Below, piece after piece: positions 2,950 through 27,332 of a DNA stretch of 32,440 nucleotides (its first letter is position 1; each line of letters begins with the position of its first letter). A model generated the notes under the pieces. It did no database searches and was not told the origin of the DNA. It saw only the letters and a program-made list of their open reading frames with translations. Both the position numbers and the translations under genes were made by a program. Origin of the DNA: Nanobdellota archaeon (GTDB lineage Archaea > Nanobdellota > Nanobdellia > Woesearchaeales > WJIZ01); assembly GCA_023140175.1 (NCBI GenBank), contig JAGLMD010000026.1, forward strand, positions 1-32,440, read 5' to 3'.

Positions 2950-2980
2950 CTAAGCATGCTGCTTTTTCATGACTTTTAAT
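2774..2980 (-). pseudogene. Unrecognised open frame without clear start, after atpD
   Basis: Reading the minus strand, 68 sense codons are open from a TAG at 2981-2983 to a TGA at 2774-2776. The translation looks like protein (for example NNFVETHFVSSLKPTEVKDL and LLIVPLNEYKNVTLNNGKEV). It overlaps the last codons of atpD in another frame. There is no ATG near the 5' end; the only plausible start is a GTG at 2911 (45 aa), and the GGAGGGAG motif near 2945 lies too far upstream of it. It could be a 5'-truncated gene or a small gene with an unusual start. The family is not recognised. Confidence 0.35.
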
Positions 2981-3558
2981 CTAGAGAAATTCTCTCTTTC
3001 TAATTCTTCCAGCCTGAATGTTATGTTCTTTTTTATTCCATTTAGTCTTGGTATTATCAGATATTCCAGGGCATTAACTCTTCTCTTTGTCTTTTTTATC
3101 TCTTCTGCAAGTTTTTTCAGAATCAACTGCTTTTCTGCCAGTTTGATTAAATCAGGAAACAATTTCCTATATTTTACTATTGCGTTATCAAGCTCTACAG
3201 ACTGATCAAAGTAGCCGGGCCATTGGTAGCTTATATCAAGGTTAGTCAGTTTGGGAATCTCAACACCCATAATACGATCAGAGTCAAAGTTAACATTTAC
3301 GTCCTGAGCCAAGCCAAGAGACAATCTTTCGATATCTAGAGTGCCTTCTATTGCTATTGCATTATATAATGAGTTTTGTGCTTTTCCTAATTTATCTGAT
3401 AGATTAATGCGAACTTTCTTTATATCTTTTAAGATTAAAAAGAATTCGATAATCAAGACATCTCTTTTTTGTTTTAATAGTTTATGGCCTTTTTCAGCCA
3501 GCTTTATCCTTTTTTTTGTCCTCAGGAGCTCCATCCTGGTCAGTTTGTAAGCAGGCAT
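2950..3558 (-). CDS. atpD: A/V-type ATPase subunit D (central stalk)
   Basis: Subunit D is the long coiled-coil rotor shaft that turns inside the A3B3 head. The product begins MPAYKLTRMELLRTKKRIKL, a hallmark of the family, and is dominated by N- and C-terminal coiled coils. At 202 aa it has the usual length. The ATG at 3558 is chosen over an upstream in-frame codon because the conserved N-terminus starts there and only 1 nt separates it from the atpB stop codon. It is the last gene of the nine-gene ATPase operon, read on the minus strand. Confidence 0.95.
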   Translation of the reverse strand: MPAYKLTRMELLRTKKRIKLAEKGHKLLKQKRDVLIIEFFLILKDIKKVRINLSDKLGKAQNSLYNAIAIEGTLDIERLSLGLAQDVNVNFDSDRIMGVEIPKLTNLDISYQWPGYFDQSVELDNAIVKYRKLFPDLIKLAEKQLILKKLAEEIKKTKRRVNALEYLIIPRLNGIKKNITFRLEELERENFSRLKVMKKQHA

Positions 3559-3559
3559 T

Positions 3560-4930
3560 TTATTTTCCGTAATATTTCTCAATGAATTTTTCGTCAATTC
3601 TCTTTAGCTCTTCTTTTGGCAATTTCGAGAGCAGACCCCATGCAAGCTTTAATGTCTCGTTTATATCACGTTCTTCGTCATAACCCTGGTTGACAAAGCT
3701 TCCCTCATATTCATCTGCAAAATCTAAGTATTTCTTATCAAGCTCTGATAATGATTCTTTGCCTATGACAGCAACTAAATCTCTAAGTTCCCGGCCGTGC
3801 GCATATGCAGCATACAGCTGATTGGCCACATCAGGATGATCTTCTCTTGTCTTGTCTTTGCCTATCCCTTTTTTCATCAATCTTGACAGGCTTGGAAGGA
3901 CATCTACAGGGGGATATGTTCCTTTTCTATGTAAGTCCCGGCTGAGAACGAATTGGCCTTCAGTTATATAACCAGTCAAGTCCGAGATGGGGTGAGTTAT
4001 ATCGTCGTCAGGCATTGATATTATCGGCATCTGTGTCAAAGAGCCCTGCCTGCCTTTTATTCTTCCTGCTCTTTCATAGATTGATGCAAGGTCAGTATAC
4101 ATATATCCAGGATAGCCCCTTCTTCCGGGGACTTCATTTCTTGCAGCAGATATTTCTCTCAAGGCTTCACAATAATTGGTCATGTCAGTGAGAATAACAA
4201 GAACGTGCATTCCTTTTTCATATGCAAGAAATTCTGCTGCTGTCAATGCAATCCTTGGAGTGATGATTCTTTCTATTGCAGGATCATCTGCCAGGTTGAG
4301 GAACATTATAACATTATTCAGTGCACCCGAATTTTCGAATTCCTGTTTAAAGAACAAAGATTCCTCGTTAGTTATACCCATTGCAGCAAATACAACTGCA
4401 AAGCTCTCATTTTCCCCAAGGACTTTAGCTTGTCTTGCTATCTGGCTGGCTAATTTATTATGGGGGAGGCCTGCTCCTGAAAATATAGGCAGTTTCTGGC
4501 CCCTTACTAATGTATTCATCATATCTATTGAGGAAAGTCCGGTCTGTATAAATTCAGAAGGGTAATCTCTTCTGATTGGATTTATTGGGCTGCCATTTAC
4601 ATCTAATCTTTTTTCAGGTATTATTTCAGGCTGATTATCAATAGGCCTGCCAAGCCCATTGAAGATTCTTCCCAGCATTTCAGAGCTTACATTAAGCTTC
4701 ATTGTTTCTGATATAAATCTCACTTTTGTTTTTTCTGTGTCTATTCCTGTTGTGCCCTCAAATACCTGCACAACTGATTTGTCTTTTTCTATCTCAAGAA
4801 CCTGGCCAAGCCTTTCTTCTCCTGAGGCAGTCTTTATTTCTACAATCTCTCCATAAGAGACATTCTCAATGCCTTCTACAATAATCAGGGGGCCAATAAC
4901 ATTTGTTACTGAGGTGTATTCTTTTATCAT
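3560..4930 (-). CDS. atpB: A/V-type ATPase subunit B (non-catalytic)
   Basis: Subunit B alternates with A in the hexameric head and carries the non-catalytic nucleotide site. Recognisable segments include [14 protein letters not shown] near the N-terminus, [11 protein letters not shown] where catalytic subunits have a P-loop (so no Walker A lysine pattern), and the [13 protein letters not shown] and [19 protein letters not shown] regions. At 456 aa it is full length. Its ATG overlaps the atpA stop codon by 4 nt (ATGA), which implies translational coupling. Confidence 0.97.
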
Positions 4931-6654
4931 TCTTTCACCTCTTTCGAATCTATCTTCTTCATTATCTCGCCGATATATTTAGCATACTCTTTCTGGTATT
5001 TCATTCTTGCAATACTATCATCTAATTCAGGATCCTGCAGGTTTGCAAGCTTGGCATCTTTTCTTATAAATGAATTCAGCTTTTTATGATAATACATTAT
5101 TGTCTTCAGCATCATATATTGTTTTTTGGGTTCGCAGTATGAATCAACTTTATGGTAAGCATACTGCATAAGGAAATCTTCTCTTATTTTCTTTGTTGTC
5201 TGCAGAACTAATTTATTTTCTTCAGGCAGAGCATCAGGGCCAACTAACTGCACTATCTCCTGAAGTTCAGCTTCTTTTTGAAGAAGCACCATTGCCTTTT
5301 CTATTAATTCAGGGTATCCTTCACCTATGCTTTTGTAATATCCCTTTATCTTATCTGAATAAAGAGAATATGATGTAAGCCAGTTTATGGCTGGGAAGTG
5401 TCTTTTGTAAGCCAGTGGAGCGTCCAAAGCCCAGAAGACTTTTGTTATTCTTAGCGTATTCTGGGTTACTGGTTCTGAGAAGTCTCCTCCAGGGGGAGAG
5501 ATAGCCCCTATAACTGATATAGTACTCTCCTGATTATTTAATGTAACTACTTTTCCTGACCTTTCATAGAATTCTGCTAATCTGGAAGCAAGATAAGCTG
5601 GGTAGCCTTCTTCGCCAGGCATCTCTTCAAGCCTTGATGAGATTTCTCTCAGGGCTTCTGCCCACCTTGATGTCGAGTCTGCCATCAGGGCAACATCATA
5701 CCCCATATCCCTAAAATACTCTGCTATTGTTATACCTGTATAAATGGATGTTTCTCTTGCTGCAACCGGCATGTTGCTGGTATTAGCGATTAGAATGGTT
5801 CTTTCCATCAATGGTTTGTTCGTTCTTGGATCTAATAGTTCAGGGAATTCCATCAATACTTCAGTCATTTCATTACCCCTTTCCCCGCAGCCAACATAAA
5901 CAACAATGTCAGCGTCAACCCATTTTGCCAATTGATGCTGAGAAACAGTCTTGCCTGCGCCAAACGGCCCGGGGATAGCTGCTGTTCCGCCTTTGACTAA
6001 TGGAAAGAATGTGTCAAAGACACGTTGTCCAGAAACCAAAGGGTTAATGGGATTTAGTTTTGTCTTATATGGCCTGGGTTTTCTTACCGGCCATTTTTGC
6101 GAGAGGGTTATTTCTTCTATCTTATCTTCTGCCTGAATCTTTGCAATAATATCATCTACCCTGTGCTTTCCCCCATATATCTCAATAAGTTTTCCTTTTA
6201 TACCAGGGGGAACCATTATTTTATGCTGTATCAATTCAGTTTCCTGGACATAACCGAGAATCTGTCCAGGGGATATATCTTCTCCTTGTTTTAATGTAGC
6301 TATGAAATCATGTTCCTTTTCTTTGTCTATTGAAGGAGCATCTATCCCCCGGGAAATAAAGTCACCAGATTTTTCTGCTAATTTTAGCAATGGGCGGCCT
6401 ATGCCATCTAATATCGAGCCTAAAAGGCCTGGGCCAAGTTCAATGCTTAGCGGCATATCTGTTGTTTTGATCTCTTCTCCTGCTTTTAAGCCGGATGTGT
6501 CTTCATATACCTGGATGACAGCATTATCTCCTCTTAGCTGGATTATCTCCCCTGTAAGGTTAAGGTTGCCTACTCTTACAAGATCATACATCTTAGATCC
6601 TTTCATATCTTTGCCAACAACCACTGGACCTGAAATCTTCTTTATTGTTCCCAT
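4927..6654 (-). CDS. atpA: A/V-type ATPase catalytic subunit A
   Basis: Subunit A is the catalytic subunit of the peripheral A1/V1 head, hydrolysing or making ATP at the A/B interface. The P-loop GPFGAGKT lies at residues 229-236 and the catalytic glutamate in the VGCGERGNE segment at about residue 258. The family's extra non-homologous region (about residues 110-200) and the [20 protein letters not shown] signature are present. At 575 aa it is full length with no sign of an intein, which interrupts this gene in some archaea. It overlaps atpF by 1 nt and atpB by 4 nt. Confidence 0.98.
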
Positions 6655-6932
6655 TAGATATCTACCTCTGAACCTATTGCTATTTTTGTTATTTTTTTTA
6701 AATCATCGATGTTAGAGAAATCATGAATTGTGTCCGGAAATACTATCAGATTATCATATTCTTCTAGTTCCGGCATAATCTCTCTAACATTTTGAGTTGC
6801 AATTATGAGCTCTTTTTTATTCACATTCTTCAATATCTCCTGGCCTTGTTTTTTATCAGCTATATAATGGCTATTTTTCACACCAGCAAGCCTAAGGCCG
6901 GTAGCGAACTCTTCATTTGCTAATACAATCAT
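6654..6932 (-). CDS. atpF: A/V-type ATPase subunit F
   Basis: Subunit F is a small Rossmann-like protein attached to subunit D in the central rotor. The 92-residue product begins [17 protein letters not shown], matching the family pattern in which a strand is followed by the conserved G-x-x-L-A-G turn. A second hydrophobic strand ([14 protein letters not shown]) is also typical. Its start codon overlaps the atpC stop (ATGA) and its stop overlaps the atpA start, so it is translationally coupled on both sides. Confidence 0.92.
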
Positions 6933-8020
6933 TGTATTATCATCCTCTCTATATCTTCCTTATCCAGGCCTGAAACAATTCCTTTTGCAATTATAAGTAA
7001 ATTCTTCATTTCAATTTCTTTCTTTGTTATGTATGAGATTATCGGATAAGGGCCTATGTTGTGTTTTAAGTCATTATTCTTTATGAAATTATGATAATGA
7101 GACAATAACCCTTTCTCAAAGCTGTAATAATCGTCGTATTTTTCAAAATCAGCGAGAGCTTTTTTTAATGTCTCTTCATATTCAGTTGATCTGAAAACAT
7201 CTATGAAAGATTTCATATCAGGGGCATCTATTGCTTTTTCTGTATCTACATTCTCTATATGCACGAGTTTTTTCTGTGTATGCTTGTCAAGGTTCCTTAT
7301 CCTGAATTTCAGCAGGGCTAATATTTTCTTAATCTCCTTCTTTTTTCTGAATACCTCTTTTATCGCATCTTTGTCATAGACTCTTATCTTTTCAATAATC
7401 TCATAAGTATCTTTCATTACCTTTTTTTCAATTTCCAGATCGAATTCCCCTATTGTGTTATAGTCTTTTTCGAATAATTCCTTATATTCTGTATCTCTCA
7501 ATACAACTTTCATATCTGCTATTGTCTTTGTATTGTGCAGGTGATTGAGCAGGGCAGGGTATATAGAGCCGGCAGGTACAAGCAGCTGCTCGTCTATTTT
7601 GATATCTGCAAATCTTGATCTGAAAAATGTCTTTATTATTTTTGATTCAATCAATTTTGTGTAGGCGTCAAAGACTTTCTGGAATTTTTTTGGAGAGATC
7701 TTCTTCATCTCTAATATGGTGTTTATCAGCCCTTCTTCTAAGGCCATATTGAATTCTTTGATGCTGTTCTTGTCAATCTTCTCAAGAAATGGATGATATT
7801 CAGTATCTTTCAATTGATTTATGAAATCAGAAAGATTTTTTGCTGCCAGCAGCTGGATAGCCCTGTTCTTATCAATAAGGCAGCTTGTCCTTGATATTAT
7901 CCTGGCATTAGCATAGAGAAATGCGCTTTCTCCTGCGTTCTTTATTATTGATATGCCTAGGACTAGTGCTGTTAAAGTAGATGCTCCTATGACAATTGAT
8001 GTTTCAGCTAACATTTTCAA
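6929..8020 (-). CDS. atpC: A/V-type ATPase subunit C, with hydrophobic N-terminus
   Basis: Subunit C (related to eukaryotic subunit d) is the funnel linking the central stalk to the membrane c-ring. The body shows the expected threefold repeat of helical bundles, with recurring DTEYHPFLEK, DTEYKELFEK and STEYEETLKK segments, one per repeat. The family core starts near residue 36 (FLYANARIISRTSCL). In front of it is a hydrophobic stretch of about 19 residues (SIVIGASTLTALVLGISII) that could be a membrane anchor. The start is either TTG at 8020, with AGGA 6 nt upstream, or ATG at 8014. Both keep the hydrophobic segment and overlap atpE. Confidence 0.9.
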   Translation of the reverse strand: MKMLAETSIVIGASTLTALVLGISIIKNAGESAFLYANARIISRTSCLIDKNRAIQLLAAKNLSDFINQLKDTEYHPFLEKIDKNSIKEFNMALEEGLINTILEMKKISPKKFQKVFDAYTKLIESKIIKTFFRSRFADIKIDEQLLVPAGSIYPALLNHLHNTKTIADMKVVLRDTEYKELFEKDYNTIGEFDLEIEKKVMKDTYEIIEKIRVYDKDAIKEVFRKKKEIKKILALLKFRIRNLDKHTQKKLVHIENVDTEKAIDAPDMKSFIDVFRSTEYEETLKKALADFEKYDDYYSFEKGLLSHYHNFIKNNDLKHNIGPYPIISYITKKEIEMKNLLIIAKGIVSGLDKEDIERMIIQ

Positions 8021-8552
8021 ATAATATCCTGCTTATTTTATGCCTTAAGCCCTGTTTTCCTGATTCTATGAATGTCTTGTAGCTAAAGTCGAATATCTCC
8101 TTGTCGTGCCTGACAATTATGCCATTGATTTTATTGTCTATCCTGATATCGGGGAAATGCTGCCTATATTCCTCAAAACTGCCAATAATTTCTATGTTAT
8201 CCCTCCCTTCTATGAATTTCCTGATGAAGCTTATGTACTCGTTTCTCAACAAACTCTCCTTTGACTTTTCCCTGGCAGCATCGAGAACTTCATTGATCAG
8301 TTCTTCTCTAAAGTTCTCGAATTCTCTTTTTGCATTAAGTTTCTCTTCAGATAAAATTGTCCTAAAGGCCTTTTTTTCTTCGTTTTCAAGCTTTGCTTCG
8401 AGCTTTTTGATTTCCTGCCTGTGTTTATCTTCTATGCCGGATTTTTCTTTGTTGAATCTCTCTAGATTTTCTTTCATGAACTCTTCTAGTTTAGCAGCAT
8501 AGCTATTTTCTATCTCTTTTTTCAATAGCCCTAAGTTTCCTAAGACCTGCAT
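8004..8552 (-). CDS. atpE: A/V-type ATPase subunit E (peripheral stalk)
   Basis: Subunit E pairs with subunit H to form the peripheral stalks that hold the catalytic head against rotation. The first 110 or so residues form a long, highly charged coiled coil. The C-terminal part (about residues 115-182) is the globular head-binding domain and contains the GIIVRHDKEIFDFSYKTFIE segment. At 182 aa it is slightly short for the family but complete. Its ATG directly follows the atpK stop codon with no gap, preceded by a GGGGTG-type ribosome site inside atpK. Confidence 0.9.
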   Translation of the reverse strand: MQVLGNLGLLKKEIENSYAAKLEEFMKENLERFNKEKSGIEDKHRQEIKKLEAKLENEEKKAFRTILSEEKLNAKREFENFREELINEVLDAAREKSKESLLRNEYISFIRKFIEGRDNIEIIGSFEEYRQHFPDIRIDNKINGIIVRHDKEIFDFSYKTFIESGKQGLRHKISRILFENVS

Positions 8553-9038
8553 CTAGCCAAGCACCCCTAATCCTACCACTAAGAGTATCAATGCCACTAT
8601 GAATCCAAATATAGCAGGAGTTTCACACTGTCCAGAAAAAACAAGGCTGGGAGCAAAAGCTTCCTGTGTTTTTGCACAGCTCACAATACCACTGGCTGCC
8701 ACAATGCCTTGATAGATAGCAGATATCCCTGTCAGGCCCACAACTAATCCGGCGCCGAACATAGCTAGGCCTTGTTCTGTGGTCAATTCCCTGATGCTTC
8801 CACCCAGAAGGCCAGCGCCCATCAATATCAATAATGCAGTTATGAATGCATAGACTGTTTGGGTCTGGGGCAATGCCTGCAAGATGAGCGCATTCTTGAA
8901 ATTCTCTTTTTTTTCAGCAACTGCACCTGCACCTGCTACTCCTGCAGCTTTTACACCTACTGCTGTAGCTATGCCTGCTATCCCCATTGCAATCGCAGCT
9001 CCACCGATTGCGAATACTGTTCCTAATGTAATACTCAT
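8553..9038 (-). CDS. atpK: A/V-type ATPase proteolipid subunit K, Na+-type site
   Basis: This is the rotor-ring proteolipid, with two fused hairpins giving four membrane helices in 161 residues. The ATG at 9038 is chosen over an in-frame GTG at 9047 because GAGGTGG lies 5 nt before the ATG and overlaps that GTG. Numbered from the ATG, hairpin 1 has L56, T59, Q60 and Y63 (ALPQTQTVYAF), and hairpin 2 has Q110 and carboxylate E139 (CETPAIFGF). These correspond to the Na+ ligands of E. hirae NtpK (L61, T64, Q65, Y68, Q110, E139), including the 29-residue Q-to-E distance. Hairpin 1 has Q58 where a carboxylate would sit, so there is one ion site per four helices. Confidence 0.95.
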   Translation of the reverse strand: MSITLGTVFAIGGAAIAMGIAGIATAVGVKAAGVAGAGAVAEKKENFKNALILQALPQTQTVYAFITALLILMGAGLLGGSIRELTTEQGLAMFGAGLVVGLTGISAIYQGIVAASGIVSCAKTQEAFAPSLVFSGQCETPAIFGFIVALILLVVGLGVLG

Positions 9039-9066: not shown

Positions 9067-10965
9067 TTAATTATCTTTCCCTATCCCAAAGGGAACATAT
9101 TTTTTTCCTGAGCCTTCATAAAATTTCTGAAAAAATTCAAGGAAATGAAGCCTTATAGAATGTACAAAGGCTCCCAGACCGTTCATGGCCATATTAAAGA
9201 TATGGCCTATTACGAATATCAATACTGCAGCAATCGGGCCTATATATTTGATATCCCATGCCATCAATGTCATGAAATTTACAGCTAATGCAATGCCTGT
9301 TGTGCCTAGCGCCAATGCTGTGAGCCTTGCATATGAAAATAAGTCGCCGATAAATCCTGGAAAATTAAATATTGACAGTATTGAGGAAATTCCTCCTGCT
9401 TCTTTGAAAGTGAGTATTACTTGTGTAATCAGTGAAGCGGAGAGAAGGATGTATCCTGGAACTTTTAGATTTAGCATGAATGCCAGTAGTGAGAATACAA
9501 ACATTATCCATACCCCTTGTTTCTGTAATCCTTCCAGGATTCTTGATTTTTTCATATTCTCTATCAGGCCGATTGTCAGGGCTGTAAGCAGATGCACTGT
9601 ACCTATAATCAGGGAAATCATGAGCACTATCATCACTTGATTGAGTGAATCTATAAGTGCTGGTATGTTAAATCCCAGGCTCTGGAAAAAGTTTCCGAAG
9701 TAAGAACCAAATACTATTCCAAGCAATAATGTGAATGCACCAAACACTGTTAATATTATTCCAACATTCTTTGTTTTTTCGTTATAGCTTCCTTTACCTC
9801 TTATCAGTAAGATTCCTAATGCCAGTAAAATGAACCCATAGACAAAATCTGTTAACATGAATCCAAAGAAAAATGAGAATGTTATTGCTAATATTGGAGT
9901 AGGGTCAAATTCATTGTACTTTGGCAGGGAATAGAGCTCTGTGAGGGATTCAAAAGGCCTTATCATCTTTGGGTTATTTAATAATGTTGGTGCATCTTCT
10001 CTTTCATTGTAAGTAAGATAGTAGCCATTTGCCCTTGTTTTAAGAATATTGTTGAATTCTTCTATGTTTTTTGCAGGAACCCAGCATTCAAGAACTGCGA
10101 AGGAGTCTGATTTTCTTATTGATGAGAGCGCATCTACTTTTTCCTTCAGCCTTCTTAATTCATCATGAAGATAGTCAAGCACAGCGTGATACGCTATGTA
10201 AAGCCTGTGCTGATCTTTTAATATATCCTCTTTTTCGGCTGCCAGCCTGGTATTCTCTTCTCTAATCTTATCAATTATCTCTAAGGGTTTCTTGTCTTCA
10301 TATGGGAAGGAGACAATATCAAAGCCTATTTTATGGAGAAACGATTCTATATTTTTGCTTAGTTCATGCTGGCATGTAACTATCAGCAGAGAAGTCTTTT
10401 TGTCAATCTCGTTTATTATTATCAGGGATTTTTTTTCTATCTGTTTTTTTATCTTTTCAATTGTTAAGTTATTCACTATTCCTACTATCTTTTTTAATTT
10501 TTCTGTATCTTTTAGCAGGGAAGTATTCATAGGAGGCATATATGCAAGATTCTCTATGAAGTAATCATTATTGTTTTTTGTTTCATCTATCCTCCCGATC
10601 TCTTTGATGTTTGTCCTTATGGTGTCTTCCACTATATCGAGGCATTCGTCTACTTTTGAAAAGAGCTCCTCTTTTAGCAATAATTTTCTTTTTATCTTTG
10701 TTATCTTTTTCTTGGAGAAGAACTCTTTTATGATATTTGGAGCAACCCTAGAACTGTAATTTTCGAGATTTTCTCTTACGAATTCAAGCCTTGAGTAGAG
10801 ATTAAGGATTTTTTCTTCATCTTCTACTGGCTGAATGGCCTCTAGCTTATTCTCGGCCATCTTTATCTGGCAAACATTTTTTTCGTGCAATAGAGATATC
10901 GTCTTCTGAACCTTATCTCTAGGAATGATCGTGACTGACCTATATATCTTTTCTGGCTTAAACAT
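9067..10965 (-). CDS. atpI: A/V-type ATPase membrane subunit I (a)
   Basis: Subunit I is the membrane stator that provides the ion half-channels and anchors the peripheral stalks. Residues 1 to about 350 form the cytosolic arm with two coiled-coil stretches; the rest carries about seven or eight membrane helices. The essential arginine is in SYARLTALALG (about R547), and a second conserved arginine is in the last helix (HSIRLHFLEFF, about R605). The C-terminal FYEGSGKKYVPF motif is typical. At 632 aa it is full length. It overlaps atpH by 8 nt and leaves a 28-nt gap to atpK, which has its own strong ribosome site, fitting the high copy number of the proteolipid. Confidence 0.96.
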   Translation of the reverse strand: MFKPEKIYRSVTIIPRDKVQKTISLLHEKNVCQIKMAENKLEAIQPVEDEEKILNLYSRLEFVRENLENYSSRVAPNIIKEFFSKKKITKIKRKLLLKEELFSKVDECLDIVEDTIRTNIKEIGRIDETKNNNDYFIENLAYMPPMNTSLLKDTEKLKKIVGIVNNLTIEKIKKQIEKKSLIIINEIDKKTSLLIVTCQHELSKNIESFLHKIGFDIVSFPYEDKKPLEIIDKIREENTRLAAEKEDILKDQHRLYIAYHAVLDYLHDELRRLKEKVDALSSIRKSDSFAVLECWVPAKNIEEFNNILKTRANGYYLTYNEREDAPTLLNNPKMIRPFESLTELYSLPKYNEFDPTPILAITFSFFFGFMLTDFVYGFILLALGILLIRGKGSYNEKTKNVGIILTVFGAFTLLLGIVFGSYFGNFFQSLGFNIPALIDSLNQVMIVLMISLIIGTVHLLTALTIGLIENMKKSRILEGLQKQGVWIMFVFSLLAFMLNLKVPGYILLSASLITQVILTFKEAGGISSILSIFNFPGFIGDLFSYARLTALALGTTGIALAVNFMTLMAWDIKYIGPIAAVLIFVIGHIFNMAMNGLGAFVHSIRLHFLEFFQKFYEGSGKKYVPFGIGKDN

Positions 10966-11278
10966 TTTGATCCAAAAATTCCTGAAAAATTATATTTATG
11001 GCTTCATCAATCTTAGCAGCAGAGCTTTTTTCCAGTTTCTGTGTCTTTTCCTTGAACTCACTTATTGTTTCTAATGCTTGATTTTTTGCCTTTGCCTTTG
11101 CCTGTTTTATTATACTGTGCTTGCTTAAGGATAGTTCATATAATTCCATCTCATTTTTTTCAAGAATCTCTTTTTTCTTTTCTTTTAGCTTATCAATAAA
11201 GAGCTTCTTTTGCTGATCTAATGAGTCTTTATTCTTGTCTTCAAACTCTTTTAGCTCTTTGATAACAGAAATGTCCAT
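10958..11278 (-). CDS. atpH: A/V-type ATPase subunit H (peripheral stalk)
   Basis: This 106-residue protein is almost entirely a charged coiled coil, as expected for subunit H (AhaH), which pairs with subunit E in the peripheral stalk. It is the first gene of the operon, the usual archaeal position. The ATG at 11278, preceded by AAGGT, is preferred over an in-frame TTG at 11302. Sequence alone would give only a coiled coil; the position in front of atpI makes the assignment. Confidence 0.82.
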   Translation of the reverse strand: MDISVIKELKEFEDKNKDSLDQQKKLFIDKLKEKKKEILEKNEMELYELSLSKHSIIKQAKAKAKNQALETISEFKEKTQKLEKSSAAKIDEAINIIFQEFLDQNV

Positions 11279-11337
11279 TTTTACCTTATTTTTGACTCCC
11301 AATACAGAAAAATAATCATCAATGGTTTATTTATAAA
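11279..11337 (-). promoter_or_regulatory. Promoter of the ATPase operon
   Basis: On the minus strand a TATA box (GTTTATAAATAAA, about 11324-11337) lies about 50 nt before the atpH ATG, predicting transcription from near 11305. It sits just downstream (in minus-strand terms) of the three hairpins that follow gap, so the ATPase genes appear to have their own promoter. Confidence 0.5.
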
Positions 11338-14538: not shown

Positions 14539-16938
14539 TTAAGAAATAAAAGAGGCAGTCCACTCTGGCATTTCAGGTGGATTTTGTGATAAAATTTCTC
14601 TCCATTTCTCATCTGTTAATCTGTCAGACATTGGATGTTTAAACTCATAATAAGTCATCACAGGACCAGCTCCGACTAAAATCCTTCCATCCGGAACTTT
14701 ATAGGCAACAACAACAATATCAACATAGCCAACCCCCTCTTCTAAAACTTTACCACTATTTCCATCAGTATGAACATCTGCAATGATTGTCGTTTTCTGT
14801 GCTTTTTCATCAACATCTGCAATAACTCCTTTTAGTTGTTTTCCAAAGTATTTTATGAAATCATAGTCTTCCTGAGTCAAAGCATCATTCTCTAACTCTT
14901 TTTTTGAAATTTCTGCTAATCTTTCTAAAATACTTTCTAAACTTTGCAGTCTTCTCTTAGAAGTATCATCTAAAACAGCCATCTCATCTAAGCCATTAAT
15001 AGTCATTCTTGTTAATGCTAATAGCCTATTATAAAATTCTGGAACCGGTTCAACATAGCCAACTACCTCAGGTTCTATTTGTACACTTGTTGTTCCTGCC
15101 ATTGTATAACTTTGTTTAGCATACAAAATTGTGTCATGCCTTAACTCAGCCCAGGAAGCTAAAGCTGTTGTTAATCCCTTATCCTGCCATGCTTCAGTCT
15201 GCATAAAAGTGGGATAGCCATTATCAAACTCTTTCAATAATGGTTTTAAGGAATAAAGCCATGCCCAATATAGGTTTTTATTCCATTCCTCAACACTAAA
15301 TCCATTGAATTCTTCTTCTAATTCAGCAAACTTTTCATCATATTTTTCATATTGGTCATCTCCTGACTCTGTTATTAGTTCTTTTGCCCTATCTGAACCT
15401 AGCAAAGCCATGACATCCAATCCTCTTGGGAAAACTCTTGCCACGATGGATCCAGATGGAGTATCCACTAAACCAGAAGTAAATGGCTCTCCGTTCCAAT
15501 TATTGGGAGTTAATGTAAAATGTTGTGTAACATATCCAAAAACTAAATTCTGGAACATATAAGAATCCGGAATAAATCTCTGTCCCATTAACCTAAATCC
15601 TTTTGTATTTTCTAAACACTTATCTGCCTGTTCTGGATTAAAAGGAGGAGCAACTGAACAACCTCCATCAACTGCAAAACCAGTTCCACCATAAATTGCA
15701 GGAGGATGGTATTCAGCTAATTTTGCTTTTAATTGTCCAACAGCATCTTCATCAAGGTCATTTGCATCAAAACTTGAACCAAAAACACTCTTCATAGATT
15801 CAATATACTCATAGGGTCCCAAATCATCTGACAAACCAACATAAAAAGCAGTCACAGCGTAAATTCTATCCCATTTATTTAGAATATCCTGATTTTCAGC
15901 TAAATGAGAAGCTGTTAGGCTGGCTTGCATTGTTTGGATTCTTGCTTCCTTTATTCTTTCATTTTCTGTAGGCAGGCTAATTAAATCTCCTTTTAATAAC
16001 ATGCTTATTCTTCCATGCCACATAAATGCCTTAAAGTAGTTCTTTAACTTTTCACTTCTTGTATAATGCCCTCTTGGAAGATATTGAGAGTAATCCTCGT
16101 TGTATTGAAATATTGGTGACACGCTAAAACCAGAATGCTTTTCAATTAGTTCTAGTTCATCATCCACATCTTGTTTTACAAAATCAGGAACCTCAAAAGT
16201 ATAGGTATTTAGTTCTTCTTCTGAGAAAAAAGCTGTTTTATCCTGAGCCTGGCATTTCCAGTCTCTTTCTGCACATGGCCCCATCACCTGTTCTTCTGCG
16301 GGCTGTAATGAAGATAAAGCAACTGAAAAATAAGCAACATTGTTTTTTGCAGCTTCTTTTAGCTCACCTGCAGCAGAATTATAATCTTCGATTGATTCTT
16401 CTAATAGTTTTTTATCTATTTCCCAAATAGCATCATAAAACTCTTTCTCTTCTATCTGCCTTAATGTTTCATCAAACTGTATATGGTATAAGTGAAGCAG
16501 AGAATCTGTAGTAATGAAAATAGGAATCTCCCTGTCTTTTAATGTTTCATAGGGAGAAGTTATTGATTCTGTTTTTTCATAAAATGGATTTTTAATAACT
16601 ACAAATCCATTTTTGTTTAATAAATCCAATGCTCCACTATTTAATTGAATTTTCCCTGAAAAATCATCGTAATTTGATATTTCAGCGGCTTTTAATGGCA
16701 ACTCATATTGAGAAGCCTTTAATTCAATTTTAATCGGATCAAGACTATAATGTTCACTAAGTGATAATTTTTCTGTGTCAATTCCAGATAAAAGAATAGG
16801 CTCAACTTCTAAAGTTCCGGTAGCTGGATCTTCAGGCTCTTTTAAGTCTGGCTCAATAACCTTTTTAGTACAACTACTTAAAAGAAAAATTCCTAAAACC
16901 AACAGTACAAATAATATTTTTAAATGATTAAACTTCAT
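14539..16938 (-). CDS. DUF3160-family lipoprotein
   Basis: The 799-residue product starts with a signal peptide ending in a lipobox (LLSSC, C23), so it is probably lipid-anchored outside the membrane. The body matches DUF3160 as I know it: PIFITTDSLLHLYHIQFDETL near residue 140, and a late segment with FMQTEAWQDKGL followed by ASWAELRHDTILYAKQSY. The enzymatic role of the family is not known to me. The ATG at 16938 is preceded by AGAGGTG 7 nt upstream, and a TATA box (CTATTTAAAAAG, about 16969-16981) fits. It is monocistronic and has a rather high Glu/Asp content, as expected for an exposed protein. Confidence 0.85.
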   Translation of the reverse strand: MKFNHLKILFVLLVLGIFLLSSCTKKVIEPDLKEPEDPATGTLEVEPILLSGIDTEKLSLSEHYSLDPIKIELKASQYELPLKAAEISNYDDFSGKIQLNSGALDLLNKNGFVVIKNPFYEKTESITSPYETLKDREIPIFITTDSLLHLYHIQFDETLRQIEEKEFYDAIWEIDKKLLEESIEDYNSAAGELKEAAKNNVAYFSVALSSLQPAEEQVMGPCAERDWKCQAQDKTAFFSEEELNTYTFEVPDFVKQDVDDELELIEKHSGFSVSPIFQYNEDYSQYLPRGHYTRSEKLKNYFKAFMWHGRISMLLKGDLISLPTENERIKEARIQTMQASLTASHLAENQDILNKWDRIYAVTAFYVGLSDDLGPYEYIESMKSVFGSSFDANDLDEDAVGQLKAKLAEYHPPAIYGGTGFAVDGGCSVAPPFNPEQADKCLENTKGFRLMGQRFIPDSYMFQNLVFGYVTQHFTLTPNNWNGEPFTSGLVDTPSGSIVARVFPRGLDVMALLGSDRAKELITESGDDQYEKYDEKFAELEEEFNGFSVEEWNKNLYWAWLYSLKPLLKEFDNGYPTFMQTEAWQDKGLTTALASWAELRHDTILYAKQSYTMAGTTSVQIEPEVVGYVEPVPEFYNRLLALTRMTINGLDEMAVLDDTSKRRLQSLESILERLAEISKKELENDALTQEDYDFIKYFGKQLKGVIADVDEKAQKTTIIADVHTDGNSGKVLEEGVGYVDIVVVAYKVPDGRILVGAGPVMTYYEFKHPMSDRLTDEKWREILSQNPPEMPEWTASFIS

Positions 16939-17580: not shown

Positions 17581-18822
17581 TTATGAAAGCTTCTCATTGA
17601 TTGCTTTAAGATTAAACAGGATAATCTGCTGAAGCACCTGGCCAAGCCTTTTATCATTCCTTTTCTTTGCCCCTTTTGTAGAAAATACATACTCCTCCAG
17701 CAAGCCTAATGGTATGTCAAGAATCGGAATATCGTTCATAAGCAGAAAATGAAATGTAATTAATCTTGTGGTTCTGCTGTTTCCGTCAAAAAACGGATGA
17801 ATGTGCTGAAATTCATTATGCAAATATGCTGCAAAGCCAAATATTTCACGAAGCGAATGCTTTTTCTTTTCATTAAAAGCATTGTATTTCTTAAGCAATG
17901 CTGCTGCACCCTTTTCAATTTCAGAATAATGGGATACCTTATAATCTACATTCCCCTTAATCCAAACTTGATCATCCCTAAATCTGCCGGCAATCTTTTT
18001 TTTGTGCTGCATTGCAATGAAATGATAATTAAGTATGTTTTCTTTTGTAATAACAGGATCATCCTGGACATTCTGCATCATTCTCAAAAAGGCTTTCTGG
18101 TAATTTTCAACCTCATGAATAGACTCCATGCTCAACTCCCCGGGAACTACTTTGTCTCTAAGAAGTTTGAACATCTGTGCCAGTGTAATTGGATTGCCTT
18201 CAATACTTAAGCTATGGTGAATAAACTGAATCTTGTATGTTTCTGTCAATTCCTGGTACTTTCTTACATTAGCAACTCGAAGCTTTTTGAACTTAGAAAG
18301 CTCATTTTGAATTTCATCAAAATACTCATCATCTCTTTTTCTTGTTACTAATGGATGATGGCCATAGTATGCAGCTAGATCGCCAAGAAATGAATTGTAT
18401 GGAACTACAGCTTTAAATGGCTTTCTTGAAAGCACTAATATAAAACCATTTTTTTCAAGAATGTTTGAAACCTTGGAAACTGTTTTTGCATTCATATCAA
18501 TGTCTTTCATTCCAAACGATTTTTTTAAGAATGCCTTGCTCAAGTATTTGGCAACAGACTCATCAAACAACTCATTATAATTAACCCCGTTCTTCATGCA
18601 GAATTTCAGCATATCAAAAAGATGCTGATGCTTTGCATTCATAGCTGCTTGATACCCGTATTTATTTTTTTCAATGAGTTTCAGCCCTACAAGGGTGTCA
18701 AGTATTTTGCGAATGCGCTGATATTCTGTTTTCTTCTGCCTGAAAATCTTAACAATATCTATAGTGCCTTTTGGGTTTCCACTCTTGTACAATTCAACAA
18801 AGACATCATATTTTGTTACCAT
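17581..18822 (-). CDS. Fic-domain protein with N-terminal winged helix
   Basis: Fic enzymes usually transfer AMP from ATP to a hydroxyl side chain of a target protein. The catalytic motif is HPFFDGNSR (H342, D346, N348, R350); the usual GNGR is GNSR here. An inhibitory helix motif of the S-x3-E-G type precedes it (S204, E208, G209 in HHSLSIEGN), making this a class II, self-inhibited Fic protein. Residues 1 to about 65 look like a winged helix-turn-helix domain, so DNA binding or autoregulation is possible. There is no ribosome site, but a TATA-like stretch about 25-30 nt before the ATG suggests a leaderless mRNA. At 413 aa it is complete. Confidence 0.88.
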   Translation of the reverse strand: MVTKYDVFVELYKSGNPKGTIDIVKIFRQKKTEYQRIRKILDTLVGLKLIEKNKYGYQAAMNAKHQHLFDMLKFCMKNGVNYNELFDESVAKYLSKAFLKKSFGMKDIDMNAKTVSKVSNILEKNGFILVLSRKPFKAVVPYNSFLGDLAAYYGHHPLVTRKRDDEYFDEIQNELSKFKKLRVANVRKYQELTETYKIQFIHHSLSIEGNPITLAQMFKLLRDKVVPGELSMESIHEVENYQKAFLRMMQNVQDDPVITKENILNYHFIAMQHKKKIAGRFRDDQVWIKGNVDYKVSHYSEIEKGAAALLKKYNAFNEKKKHSLREIFGFAAYLHNEFQHIHPFFDGNSRTTRLITFHFLLMNDIPILDIPLGLLEEYVFSTKGAKKRNDKRLGQVLQQIILFNLKAINEKLS

Positions 18823-23245: not shown

Positions 23246-24388
23246 ATGATCTATAAGTCAAGGCTAAAACAGAAAATTAAGGTTTATGATACAACTTTAA
23301 GAGATGGAGAGCAGATGCCTTCTGTGGTATTTTCTCCTAAAGAAAAGATAATGCTAGCCTCAAAAATAGCAGAATTTGGTGCCGGTATAATTGGCATTAT
23401 GCCTGCCGTATCTGATGAAGAGAAAAAGGTAACTAAAATAATATCGAATATGGGGCTTAAAGCAGACATTACTGCAGCGACTATGTTGAGGAAAGACCAC
23501 ATAGATATTGCAGCGGAATGCGGTGTACAAAGGATAATATTGTTTAGTTCGCTTTCTGATATACATCTTAATACTAAATTGAGGATAACAAGAGAGGAAA
23601 ATATAAGGAAAAGTTTAGGGTTTATTGAATATGCCTCTAGCCGGGGATTAACAGTAGATTTTGCCGGAGAGGATGCGACAAGGACAGATATTGATTATGT
23701 TGTTGAATTTATTAATGCTGTATCAAATAAAATAGATTATTTTCTTCCTTGTGATACCTTGGGGATTTTAACGCCATTCCAGACCTATAATTTTATCAGG
23801 AAAATTAAGCAGAACTGCAGATGTAAAATTGGCTTGCATATACATAATGATTTTGGCCAGGCTACAGCAAATACTCTTGCTGGTTTGGAGGCAGGTGCTG
23901 ATCTGTTCTCCGGGACTTTTAATGGTATTGGTGAGAGGACAGGAAATGCACCTATTGAAGAGGTGGTTATGGCACTTAAAATGCAGTATGGAGTTGATTT
24001 AGGCTTAAAATATAAGCTGATTAGTAATATATGCAGCTCAGTAGAAAGGTATTCAGGAATAGTGCTGCAGAAACATAAACCAATTTCTGGAAGGCATGCC
24101 TTCTCACATGAAAGTGGCATTCATGTTGATGGCATATTGAAGAATCCATTAAATTATGAGAATTTTAACCCGGGAATTATTGGAAGAGAGAGAAGAATAT
24201 TATTTGGAAAGCATAGTGGTATTTGCAGTCTTAGATATTTGTTTGACAATATGTTCGTAGATGAAGAATTAATGATGATATTAAATGATATTAAGCAAAG
24301 GTCCCAAATACAGAAGAGGGCCTTTTCTGAAAGAGAGATAATTGATTTATATGGCCGCAAGGAAGTAGAATCGGTGTTGGTAACATGA
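23246..24388 (+). CDS. Homocitrate/citramalate/isopropylmalate synthase-like enzyme
   Basis: Enzymes of this family condense acetyl-CoA with a 2-oxo acid. Motifs present are DTTLRDGEQ (15-23), the metal-binding HIHND (H198, H200), GERTGNAPIEE (229-239) and HESGIHVDG (288-296), followed by GKHSG. At 380 aa it lacks the C-terminal LeuA regulatory domain, as do NifV and AksA homocitrate synthases, to which HESGIHVDGILK is closest. The segment that usually reads I-E-V-G before PA is IIGIMPA here, so the 2-oxo acid pocket may differ. It starts 7 nt after the UbiA gene and overlaps the next gene by 4 nt. No companion oxidative decarboxylase is nearby. Confidence 0.83.
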   Translation: MIYKSRLKQKIKVYDTTLRDGEQMPSVVFSPKEKIMLASKIAEFGAGIIGIMPAVSDEEKKVTKIISNMGLKADITAATMLRKDHIDIAAECGVQRIILFSSLSDIHLNTKLRITREENIRKSLGFIEYASSRGLTVDFAGEDATRTDIDYVVEFINAVSNKIDYFLPCDTLGILTPFQTYNFIRKIKQNCRCKIGLHIHNDFGQATANTLAGLEAGADLFSGTFNGIGERTGNAPIEEVVMALKMQYGVDLGLKYKLISNICSSVERYSGIVLQKHKPISGRHAFSHESGIHVDGILKNPLNYENFNPGIIGRERRILFGKHSGICSLRYLFDNMFVDEELMMILNDIKQRSQIQKRAFSEREIIDLYGRKEVESVLVT

Positions 24389-25521
24389 AACTTAACACTT
24401 ATGTAGATTATGCTGGATTGAGGCTTAGCAATCCTATAATTGCTGCGTCATCGAATTTAACAAAGACTGTTAAGAGAATGAAGAATCTGGAAGAGAGTAG
24501 TATAGGGGCGATTATTGTAAAAAGTCTTCTTGAGAAAAAAATAGCGAAAAAAGCACCAAAACCAAGATTTAAGATTATATCTAGTGGGATACATTTACTG
24601 AAATCAGATTCTCTCTATTCTTATGAGCCTTCAGACTGGAGTCTTGAAAAGTATGCAGGAGAGATTACTAAAGCAAAAAAAGAGTTAAGAATCCCTGTTA
24701 TTGCCAGTTTGGCATGTATTACAGATGAAGGGTGGATGTCTTACGGAAAAGATTTAGAAGAAGCTGGTGCAGATGCAATCGAGTTAAATTTTTCGTGTCC
24801 GGTTGGGCCCCATATCTCTTCTGAAGATGATTTTATTGATAGATTAGTAAAGATTGTGAAAATGCTTAAGCAGGAACTATATATCCCTATTATCGCTAAA
24901 TTAACACCCCAGCTTACTAACCCCACATATGTTTCTAAGAATTTAGAGAAGGCAGGTGCTGATGCAGTAGTAATGTTCAACAGGTTTTCTGGCTTGGAGA
25001 TCAATATTAAGGAAGAGAAACCCATATTATGTGGATCTTATTGCGGTTATGGTGGAGCATGGCAGATAAATCACTCATTGCGGTGGGTAAGTGCTTCCTT
25101 TAAGGTTCTGGATGTCCCGATAAGTGGATCAGGAGGAGTTTCTTCAGCTGAAGATATAATTAAGTATATTCTTGCAGGAGCAACAACTGTACAGCTATGT
25201 ACTTTAATTCATATGAAGGGGATTTCTGTGATTAAGGAACTTAATAAAGGTTTAAGGAGATTTATGATTGATAAGGGCTATTCTTGTTTAGATGATTTTA
25301 GGGGGAAGGTTGTAGATGATATAATACAGCCATCAGATATAGATGTTAGTTCTAATAATATGCGGGCTAGGATTGACCCTGACAAGTGCAATAGCTGCGG
25401 TATTTGTGAAAAAGTTTGTATGAATAATGCTATAGTGGATTTTCAAGTTAGCTCTAAGTGCGAGGGCTGCGGTTTGTGTGCTGAAGTTTGTGCTAATAAG
25501 GCAATTTCAATGGTGAATTAG
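24385..25521 (+). CDS. Dihydroorotate/dihydropyrimidine-dehydrogenase-like flavoprotein with two [4Fe-4S]
   Basis: Residues 1 to about 310 form a DHOD-type FMN barrel: SNPIIAASSN at the start, ELNFSCPVG with active-site C138, and the phosphate-binding GSGGVSSAEDI. The C-terminus is a bacterial-type ferredoxin with two complete clusters, C335/C338/C341/C345 and C359/C362/C365/C369. This architecture is that of PreA (the pyrimidine-reducing subunit of NAD-dependent dihydropyrimidine dehydrogenase). No PreT partner or pyrimidine gene is nearby, so I infer reduction or oxidation of a different ring or enone, with electrons from ferredoxin. Its ATG overlaps the previous stop codon (ATGA). Confidence 0.82.
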   Translation: MKLNTYVDYAGLRLSNPIIAASSNLTKTVKRMKNLEESSIGAIIVKSLLEKKIAKKAPKPRFKIISSGIHLLKSDSLYSYEPSDWSLEKYAGEITKAKKELRIPVIASLACITDEGWMSYGKDLEEAGADAIELNFSCPVGPHISSEDDFIDRLVKIVKMLKQELYIPIIAKLTPQLTNPTYVSKNLEKAGADAVVMFNRFSGLEINIKEEKPILCGSYCGYGGAWQINHSLRWVSASFKVLDVPISGSGGVSSAEDIIKYILAGATTVQLCTLIHMKGISVIKELNKGLRRFMIDKGYSCLDDFRGKVVDDIIQPSDIDVSSNNMRARIDPDKCNSCGICEKVCMNNAIVDFQVSSKCEGCGLCAEVCANKAISMVN

Positions 25522-25522
25522 A

Positions 25523-26032
25523 TTGATAATTAAAGGTAAGGTATGGAAATATGGAGATCATGTTAACACAGATGTGATTATACCTGGCAGATATGCAATG
25601 TGTGCTTTATCTGAATTAGGAGAGCATTGTATGGAAGATCTTGATCCTGATTTTGTAAAGAAAGTAAGGAAGGGAGATATAATTGTAGCAGGCAAGAACT
25701 TTGGCTGTGGCTCTTCCAGACAGCATGCCCCGATAGCTATACAGGCTGCTGGCGTATCTTGTGTTATTGCTAAATCTTTCGCCAGGATATTCTTCAGGAA
25801 TGCAATAAACATGGCTTTTCCTGCATTTGAGTTAGTTGAGGCAGACAGAATTGAGGAAGGAGATTATTTAAGGATTGATGTAAAAGAAGGGAAAATTGAG
25901 AATTTAACTAAGGAAGAGGATTATACTATCAAACCTATTCCTGAGTTTTTAATGAATATTTTTTCTTCTGGCGGATTATTGAAATATATAAAACAAAGGG
26001 GGGCAAAATATGAAAAAGATATTATTTGTTAA
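25523..26032 (+). CDS. LeuD/HacB-like swivel subunit of a hydro-lyase
   Basis: This is the small (swivelling) subunit of the isopropylmalate/homoaconitate dehydratase family, which isomerises hydroxy-acids with a large [4Fe-4S] subunit. Typical parts are NTDVIIPGRY (15-24), GKNFGCGSSRQHAP (57-70) and AKSFARIFFRNA. In methanogen homoaconitase the substrate loop has Tyr-Leu-Arg-Thr; here it is YAMC (24-27), so another substrate is likely. No large subunit occurs in the window and must be elsewhere. It starts with TTG at 25523, one base after the previous stop, with GGTGA 6 nt upstream inside that gene. It overlaps the next gene by 23 nt. At 169 aa it is normal in length. Confidence 0.87.
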   Translation: MIIKGKVWKYGDHVNTDVIIPGRYAMCALSELGEHCMEDLDPDFVKKVRKGDIIVAGKNFGCGSSRQHAPIAIQAAGVSCVIAKSFARIFFRNAINMAFPAFELVEADRIEEGDYLRIDVKEGKIENLTKEEDYTIKPIPEFLMNIFSSGGLLKYIKQRGAKYEKDIIC

Positions 26033-27332
26033 TCCTGCTTATAAGGGGGATGTTTTACCTAAAGTTTTAAAGATACCGCCTTTAGCTTTGGCAACTTTAG
26101 CATCTTATACTCCAGATAATTATGAGATGAAGATAGTTGATGAGAATGTTTCTACTTTGAATTTAAATGAATGTGTTGATTTAATCGCAATATCATCTAT
26201 GACCTATAATGCTCCAAGGGCTTATGAAATTGCGCAAGGATTTAGGGAAAGGGGTATTCCTGTAGTTATAGGCGGGATACATCCTTCGATGCTGCCAAAT
26301 GAGGCTATCCAATATTGTGATTCTGTTATCATTGGAGAGGCTGAGAGTATTTGGAAACAAGTTATTAAGGACTTTGAGAATAATAAGTTACAACATTTCT
26401 ATTATGGCCTAAGAACGAATCTTGAAAACATGTCAGTTCCACGAAGAGATTTGTTTGAGAAGAAATACAGAATCGATATGGTACAGACTTCGAGAGGTTG
26501 TCCTTTTAACTGCGAATTTTGTTCTGTTACTGAATTTAATGGGGGAACTTATAGAAGAAGGCCCATAAAGGAAGTGATTCATGAAATCAAAAGCCTTCCT
26601 ACTAAAAGATTTATGTTTGCTGATGATAATATAATTGGAAGTGGAAAGAAATCAGAAGAATACTCGTTGGCTTTGTTTAAAGAGTTAAAGGAAATTAATG
26701 TAATCTGGGGTTCTCAAGCCTCCATTAATATTGCAGATAATGATAATGTTTTGAAAGCTGTCGCAGAAGCAGGTGGAATGGGATTTTTTATAGGTATAGA
26801 ATCTTTAAGCGAGGATTCTTTGAAGCAAATGGGAAAAGGTATAAATCTGAAAGAGGGTGTTAAGAATTATAAGAACACAATTAAAAAATTACATGATTAT
26901 GGTATTGTTGTCACAGGAGCGTTTGTTCTTGGAAATGATGGTGATAAGAAAGATATTTTTCAGAGGACTATAGATTTCATTTATGATGCTGACATTGATA
27001 GGGCACAGATAACAATCTCAACGCCTTTGCCGGGCACTAGATTATTTAAGAGACTTGAGAGAGAGGGGAGGATATTATACAAGAATTACCCTTATGATTG
27101 GAGAAAATATGATGTTTTTCATGCTGTCTTTGAGCCAAAGAATATGACTATAGAGGAACTGGAGAATGGATTCTTAGATGTTTATAGTTCTATAACTTCA
27201 AATTATTCTTCATTAAAAAGAGCTTTAAGGAGCTTGGTTAATACAAAGAATGTTTTATCTTCGACGCTTTCATATCTCTATAATCGGGCGTATGGAAAGG
27301 GTGTGTCTACACTTTATAGCAGAACTTGTTAA
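26010..27332 (+). CDS. B12-binding-type radical SAM enzyme
   Basis: The N-terminal 140 residues form a cobalamin-binding-type Rossmann domain (VVIGGIHPSMLPNEA, then DSVIIGEAE), without the base-off DxHxxG motif. The radical SAM core follows, with the cluster cysteines C164, C168 and C171 (SRGCPFNCEFC). The C-terminal 100 or so residues resemble the DUF4070-type tail of enzymes such as the hopanoid methylase HpnR. Members methylate unactivated carbons or remodel rings. AAAGGGGGGC precedes the ATG at 26010, inside the preceding gene. At 440 aa it is complete. In this operon it may methylate, cyclise or couple the prenylated product; the reaction is an inference. Confidence 0.87.
   Translation: MKKILFVNPAYKGDVLPKVLKIPPLALATLASYTPDNYEMKIVDENVSTLNLNECVDLIAISSMTYNAPRAYEIAQGFRERGIPVVIGGIHPSMLPNEAIQYCDSVIIGEAESIWKQVIKDFENNKLQHFYYGLRTNLENMSVPRRDLFEKKYRIDMVQTSRGCPFNCEFCSVTEFNGGTYRRRPIKEVIHEIKSLPTKRFMFADDNIIGSGKKSEEYSLALFKELKEINVIWGSQASINIADNDNVLKAVAEAGGMGFFIGIESLSEDSLKQMGKGINLKEGVKNYKNTIKKLHDYGIVVTGAFVLGNDGDKKDIFQRTIDFIYDADIDRAQITISTPLPGTRLFKRLEREGRILYKNYPYDWRKYDVFHAVFEPKNMTIEELENGFLDVYSSITSNYSSLKRALRSLVNTKNVLSSTLSYLYNRAYGKGVSTLYSRTC

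Follow-up and report, generated by a model that had tools for sequence, protein, structure and literature searches.

The window analysed here, a 32,440-nucleotide stretch of DNA from a Nanobdellota archaeon of the Woesearchaeales, very probably carries the operon of a complete, Na+-coupled rotary ATPase of the archaeal A/V type, which is reversible in principle. This assignment is based on the ligand residues of its rotor subunit K and their alignment with those of E. hirae NtpK, their invariance over six families, the match of the modelled fold to NtpK, the discrete K classes found in the order, the clades formed by subunits A and B, an NtpI-like subunit I with D541, the presence of a single c-subunit gene and the Na+ circuit of the genome. 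The gene set, fold, ligand identity, conservation and clade membership are computed results, and Na+ transport itself, its direction and the ring size are inferred.

The named relatives of the genome are Woesearchaeota, Nanoarchaeia and Nanoarchaeota MAGs, so the placement in DPANN given in an earlier note, made on the sequence of the window, is right. The Na+-binding rotor which that note attributed to a DPANN cell, here a Woesearchaeales-like one, is supported, as a prediction, by the ligands and by the alignment and modelled fold shared with NtpK. Little is known of the ion economy of these reduced archaea, for which the window provides a well-supported Na+-type rotary ATPase.

The ATPase operon

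Subunit K is encoded in a nine-gene cluster with the canonical order H-I-K-E-C-F-A-B-D, located on the minus strand (Table 1), a strand that had been left unstated for the K gene. The cluster co-encodes the complete A1AO/V1VO set (A, B, D, F, C, E, H, I and K), E and H being assigned by position and homologous operons only, and neither the H-like nor the E-like protein has a Pfam or NCBIfam match. The core gene order is the same as that of the E. hirae ntp operon, ntpFIKECGABD.

The best PDB match of subunit I is E. hirae NtpI (8wci, E 3.2e-43, versus 7.5e-17 for Thermus), and its R547 and R605 align with NtpI R573 and R629; subunit I, with these two residues, would load and unload the ion sites of the rotor. 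Position 541 of subunit I is Asp in 8/8 operons of the window type, in 5/5 operons with a giant K and in NtpI, and in none of the 18 other aligned operons, which are mainly of the PETLVIF type. Subunit A, in contrast, is closest to the Pyrococcus horikoshii protein (1vdz, 777 bits), with about 703 bits for Thermus and 702 for E. hirae.

Table 1. Features of the ATPase operon and of subunit K, in window coordinates.
Feature	Position	Strand	Evidence or remark
Stalk subunit H-like coiled coil (ntpF/ahaH position)	10958..11302	minus	operon position, sequence character, homologues in some related operons
Subunit I (a)	9067..10965	minus	PF01496
Subunit K (c, proteolipid)	8553..9038	minus	161 aa, two hairpins, one ion site
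Hairpin 1 ion face of K	8850..8873	minus	sequence, NtpK alignment, conservation
L56	8871-8873	minus	hairpin 1 ion face of K
Q58	8865-8867	minus	hairpin 1 of K, in place of carboxylate
T59	8862-8864	minus	hairpin 1 ion face of K
Q60	8859-8861	minus	hairpin 1 ion face of K
Y63	8850-8852	minus	hairpin 1 ion face of K
Q110	8709..8711	minus	predicted inner-helix Na+ ligand, hairpin 2 of K
E139	8622..8624	minus	hairpin 2; sole membrane carboxylate at ion site of K
Subunit E-like peripheral stalk	8004..8552	minus	position, homologues in related operons
Subunit C (rotor-stalk connector)	6929..8020	minus	PF01992; TIGR02923 below cut-off
Subunit F	6654..6932	minus	position; PF01990 23.0 bits, just under cut-off 23.5
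Catalytic subunit A, P-loop GPFGAGKT	4927..6654	minus	PF00006 and others
Subunit B	3560..4930	minus	Pfam/NCBIfam
Subunit D (central stalk)	2950..3597	minus	PF01813

Subunit K and its predicted Na+ site

The K gene begins with an ATG at 9038, preceded by a ribosome-binding-like stretch (GAGGTGG), and its stop codon ends at 8553. PF00137 is found twice above its cut-off in this one frame, which identifies K as a duplicated ATP-synt_C hairpin. Two NCBIfam models of V-type ATP synthase subunit K were compared with it, PRK08344.1, which is passed with 129.9 bits (cut-off 108), and PRK06558.1, which at 106 bits is not (cut-off 127); the former family presumably has the Thermococcales as its scope. 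With only two hairpins, the window K is not a single-chain multi-hairpin rotor of the M. kandleri kind, although relatives such as that of genome G278 are.

The top PDB sequence match of K is E. hirae NtpK (2bl2, phmmer E 1.8e-18). The phmmer alignment places L56, T59, Q60, Y63, Q110 and E139 on NtpK L61, T64, Q65, Y68, Q110 and E139, and so bears out the one-to-one correspondence with the Na+ ligands of NtpK that the earlier note had claimed. T59 and Q60 thus do not fall off the ion site, an outcome that the note would have taken as a refutation. Between the two hairpins the alignment has a gap of six residues in NtpK, and one residue is inserted ahead of Q110. Two further claims of that note also hold, since Q110 and E139 are separated by 29 residues, the spacing of NtpK, and the place of a hairpin 1 carboxylate is occupied by a glutamine (Q58, a G in NtpK), leaving one carboxylate per four helices. 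In NtpK, the six residues are the Na+ ligands together with the tyrosine that holds the glutamate (PMC2359735). The definition of a Na+-type c/K subunit by Mulkidjanian et al. (2008) comprises Glu, Gln, Thr/Ser, a polar residue at the Gln65 position and a stabilising Tyr (PMC2359735), and the window K possesses this whole set.

The structural comparison with NtpK proposed in the earlier note leads to the same protein, as the AF2 model of K (pLDDT 86.7) has NtpK as its top PDB fold match (TM 0.82/0.85, 2.0 A, 40% identity). This fold, with E139 as the only ion-site carboxylate, makes K an NtpK-like four-helix, one-site rotor subunit. In the mechanism proposed, hairpin 1 would provide the receiving face, through the backbone of L56 and the side chains of T59, Q60 and Y63, and hairpin 2 would contribute the E139 carboxylate and Q110. 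One Na+ would be bound per four-helix K, the number of sites in the ring being that of the K copies.

The E. hirae V-type Na+-ATPase (2bl2, 8wci) shares with the window enzyme the four helices, the single carboxylate, an identical ligand set and the Q-to-E spacing, and supplies the closest K and I in the PDB. The window enzyme differs from it in a K that is 40% identical and scores below the PRK06558 cut-off, in having Q where NtpK has G at the carboxylate position of hairpin 1, and in a subunit A closer to that of Pyrococcus.

Conservation and classes of subunit K in the order

Genomes are designated here by G numbers, G000 being that of the window and the others those of relatives. A two-hairpin K was found in 8 of 353 genomes of the order, distributed over six families. 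In these eight window-type sequences (the window K and seven relatives with 69-86% identity to it), the six ligand residues and Q58 are invariant, so that the residues at these positions are not the random ones by which the earlier note would have seen its reading refuted. Taking into account that 73 of the 161 columns are invariant among these eight, ligand invariance alone is modest evidence, and the discrimination among K classes is the stronger test.

Some c subunit is present in 137 of 338 genomes of the order, mostly with a single hairpin. A survey of the single-hairpin form yielded 62 rows, a few being spurious frames, and about 56 genuine sequences; in 43 of these the Gln110 position is occupied by E, with PET[IL]VIF after it, whereas seven carry the full Q/E/T/Q/Y set and six a partial one. 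The K classes thus differ at the ligand positions, which are sorted by class and not at random. A class-wide scan, thinly sampled, gave no window-type or giant K apart from G000 and G095.

The single-hairpin K of many Woesearchaeales (e.g., L012), with a second Glu at the inner-helix Gln position and PET[IL]VIF, recalls the two-carboxylate ring of Methanosarcina acetivorans, for which a second Glu and coupling to both ions have been reported (PMC3692424). A classification of these proteins as plainly H+-specific was rejected on account of this likeness, and the ion preference of the class is uncertain. G212 (L114) has an extra single-hairpin K gene (7514-7777) between D and B, besides the usual K adjoining I, and G014, a 97% complete genome of the same genus as the window, is devoid of any c subunit, while its genus-mate has a full Na+-type operon.

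Giant K subunits

Giant homologues of K, with 42-48% identity to the window K over the best stretch, are present in five genomes of the order (G278, G012, G002, G044 and G320). The only complete example, that of G278 (L085:9395-12721), is a single frame of 1109 aa with 13 hairpins; its start codon lies within the last nucleotides of gene I. Hairpin 1 of this protein reads PQTQGIY, without carboxylate and without the inner-helix Gln, hairpins 2-12 have Gln and PETQALY, and hairpin 13 has Gln and Glu followed by TYAIF. If, as in NtpK, T, Q and Y are provided by one hairpin and Gln and Glu by the next, 12 Na+ sites are predicted, with a blank junction between hairpin 13 and hairpin 1. An assembly artefact was considered and judged unlikely, as neighbouring repeats have 50-77% DNA identity and exact identity extends over 55 nt at most. 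The 13-hairpin K of Methanopyrus kandleri (1021 aa) is of the same length in hairpins, but it has full ligands in all 13 (PMC2359735), against 12 predicted sites in 13 hairpins for the Woesearchaeales protein. Among the openly licensed papers searched, no report of a giant K from Woesearchaeales was found.

The remaining giant K genes are fragments at contig ends (G012, G002, G044 and G320). In G012, two such ends carry five and eight hairpins (13 if they abut), one hairpin being without carboxylate. An N-terminal extension of about 35-65 residues is present on the giant K of G278 and G002.

Regarding the origin of the long form, hairpin 1 of the window K and hairpin 1 of NtpK both score best against giant hairpin 1, and a hairpin tree groups the three (89/91), a suggestive result obtained with 73 columns. 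A specific relationship of window hairpin 2 with the last giant hairpin was discarded, since its best pairwise matches are hairpins 9 and 4 and the tree support is weak (81/51); the match between the first hairpins is the better one. In a natural reading, the giant K arose when the second hairpin of a K with two hairpins was amplified, and the reverse, shrinkage of a giant K to two hairpins, may have taken place instead. The AF2 model of the 13-hairpin chain (pLDDT 60, pTM 0.62) is too poor for a test of ring closure. Several rotor designs coexist in one order, one of them a one-chain rotor whose junction is apparently blank. This is relevant to the gain and loss of sites in c-rings and to the question of whether ring symmetry is required for function.

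Operon lineages and paired operons

A maximum-likelihood tree of subunit A separates window-type (99/96), giant-K (100/98) and PETLVIF (100/100) operons, and the same three clades appear in the tree of subunit B (98/97, 100/99 and 95/97, respectively). Both trees match the rotor type, which indicates that the rotor type travels with the whole operon.

Window-type and PETLVIF operons occur together in three genomes. In G095 (L038) and G023 (L039) they stand in tandem, in opposite orders, and in G189 they are on two contigs (L035 and L115). The window's own family contains genomes with the window type only, with both, with the PETLVIF type only or with no c subunit, and loss or transfer may account for this spread. 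In seven archaeal genera, paired A-ATPases that differ in predicted ion specificity are on record (PMC11738941). G200 (L110) and G202 (L108) also have a second ATPase operon, its K being of the single-hairpin form with full ligands; the A tree places its A subunits on a very long branch (2.78), and that of G200 is long in the B tree as well.

When these observations are read jointly, we consider it an even proposition that a single order holds both two-hairpin and 13-hairpin (1109-aa) Na+ rotors. In this reading, the long form would retain the site-less first hairpin of the two-hairpin form, followed by 11 full repeats and a final hairpin whose receiving face is dead. The ring would have one blank junction and 12 Na+ sites, or four per ATP for three catalytic sites. 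Some members of the order would have, side by side with the window-type operon, another ATPase that probably differs in ion preference.

Ion circuitry of the genome

The genome of the window comprises 2.07 Mb in 184 contigs, is rated 100% complete and contains a single c-subunit gene. Family searches, covering a few pump families in this 184-contig assembly, detected neither PF00361 (Mrp, complex I, Mbh) nor Rnf/Nqr, OadB (Na+ decarboxylase) or an SSF symporter. They did return one NCX, three PF00999 cation/H+ antiporters and membrane pyrophosphatases, of a class that includes Na+ pumps, so that further Na+ circuitry, of the kind that the earlier note had proposed to look for, is predicted.

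One pyrophosphatase gene is complete (L050, C164) and two partial matches lie at contig ends (L051, C90; L052, C79), which may be one second gene. The complete protein, of the K+-dependent E6.53 class, has the motif GNTTAATGKG, with A at 12.46. Its gate Glu is at 6.53, one helical turn earlier than in the H+ pump of Vigna, and N is found at 16.46, as in the Vigna enzyme. K+-dependent pyrophosphatases with E6.53 are mostly Na+ or dual Na+/H+ pumps, some being H+ pumps (PMC5150537, PMC10897367), and L050 is probably of the Na+ type, as far as its residues allow this to be predicted. In Woesearchaeota, V-type ATPases were already known, and hppA has been noted in some of them (PMC8421398). As the redox pumps searched for were not found in the window genome, a Na+ economy based on pyrophosphatase and ATPase is a testable proposal.

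Coupling ion and working mode

Since the redox- and decarboxylation-driven pumps searched for were not found in the genome, the ATPase would seem, on balance, to serve a fermentative cell chiefly by exporting Na+ at the expense of ATP, beside the probable Na+-type pyrophosphatase, and the Na+ exported could feed NCX and the cation/H+ antiporters.

One ion site per four helices lowers the ion/ATP ratio and raises the ion-motive force needed for synthesis, and the earlier note had argued from known rings of this kind that pumping is favoured. This argument is weak, because a Na+-dependent synthase, that of P. furiosus, has the same architecture; the one-site design does not fix the direction. 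Mayer et al. 2012 (cited in PMC3692424) name in their title an archaeal ATP synthase whose c subunit has four helices and a single Na+ site, presumably the enzyme of P. furiosus. It is conceivable, but less likely, that the window enzyme is Na+-coupled and chiefly synthesises ATP, the gradient being supplied by a Na+-pumping pyrophosphatase or an unrecognised pump. This alternative, a rival on direction only, draws on the Na+-dependent A1AO enzyme of Pyrococcus furiosus, which makes ATP from a Na+ gradient (PMC8415708) and shares with the window enzyme four helices and one Na+ site per K and the archaeal A and B subunits, A being closest in the PDB to a Pyrococcus protein, and pyrophosphatase genes are available. 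It is weakened by the ion/ATP ratio and by the lack, among the families searched, of an Mrp/Mbh-type module, Rnf or Na+ decarboxylase in the window genome; unlike for P. furiosus, no Mrp-containing redox pump that could feed the ATPase was found.

With regard to the ion itself, a ring that keeps its Na+ ligands by descent and is driven in vivo by H+, or by both ions as reported for M. acetivorans, is improbable. In the absence of Na+, rings of the Na+ type are able to transport H+ (PMC2359735), and rotor promiscuity is known in archaea (PMC3692424). However, the full set, including Y63 and Q60, is invariant over six families while the other common K class of the order has changed ligands, and the second Glu of the M. 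acetivorans K is missing from the window K. That the ligands match just because c subunits are conserved in general, and carry no information on specificity, is very improbable and already disfavoured, because, even if six more invariant columns say little alone among so many, these positions differ systematically in other K classes of the order and recur hairpin after hairpin in the giant K, and in NtpK. Na+ coupling is therefore retained as the preferred reading.

Relation to other Na+-type enzymes

Nanoarchaeum equitans, also a DPANN archaeon, has a predicted Na+-type K like that of the window, but with one hairpin per subunit. This K was already listed with all Na+ ligands (PMC2359735), so a Na+-type K is not new to DPANN. 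Predicted Na+ A-ATPases are common, accounting for 4,927 of the 9,167 A-type enzymes in ProAD (PMC11738941). More interesting than the window K are its relatives with paired operons (three genomes) and those with a giant K (five genomes).

Other genes of the window

Upstream of the ATPase operon, and on the same strand, are encoded a large lipoprotein-like DUF3160 protein (14539-16938) and a Fic-domain protein (17581-18822). A run of plus-strand genes (23246-27332) includes some that resemble, by eye, homocitrate/isopropylmalate synthase, a dihydroorotate dehydrogenase with a ferredoxin domain and the small subunit of isopropylmalate dehydratase, together with a B12-binding radical SAM protein identified with Pfam.
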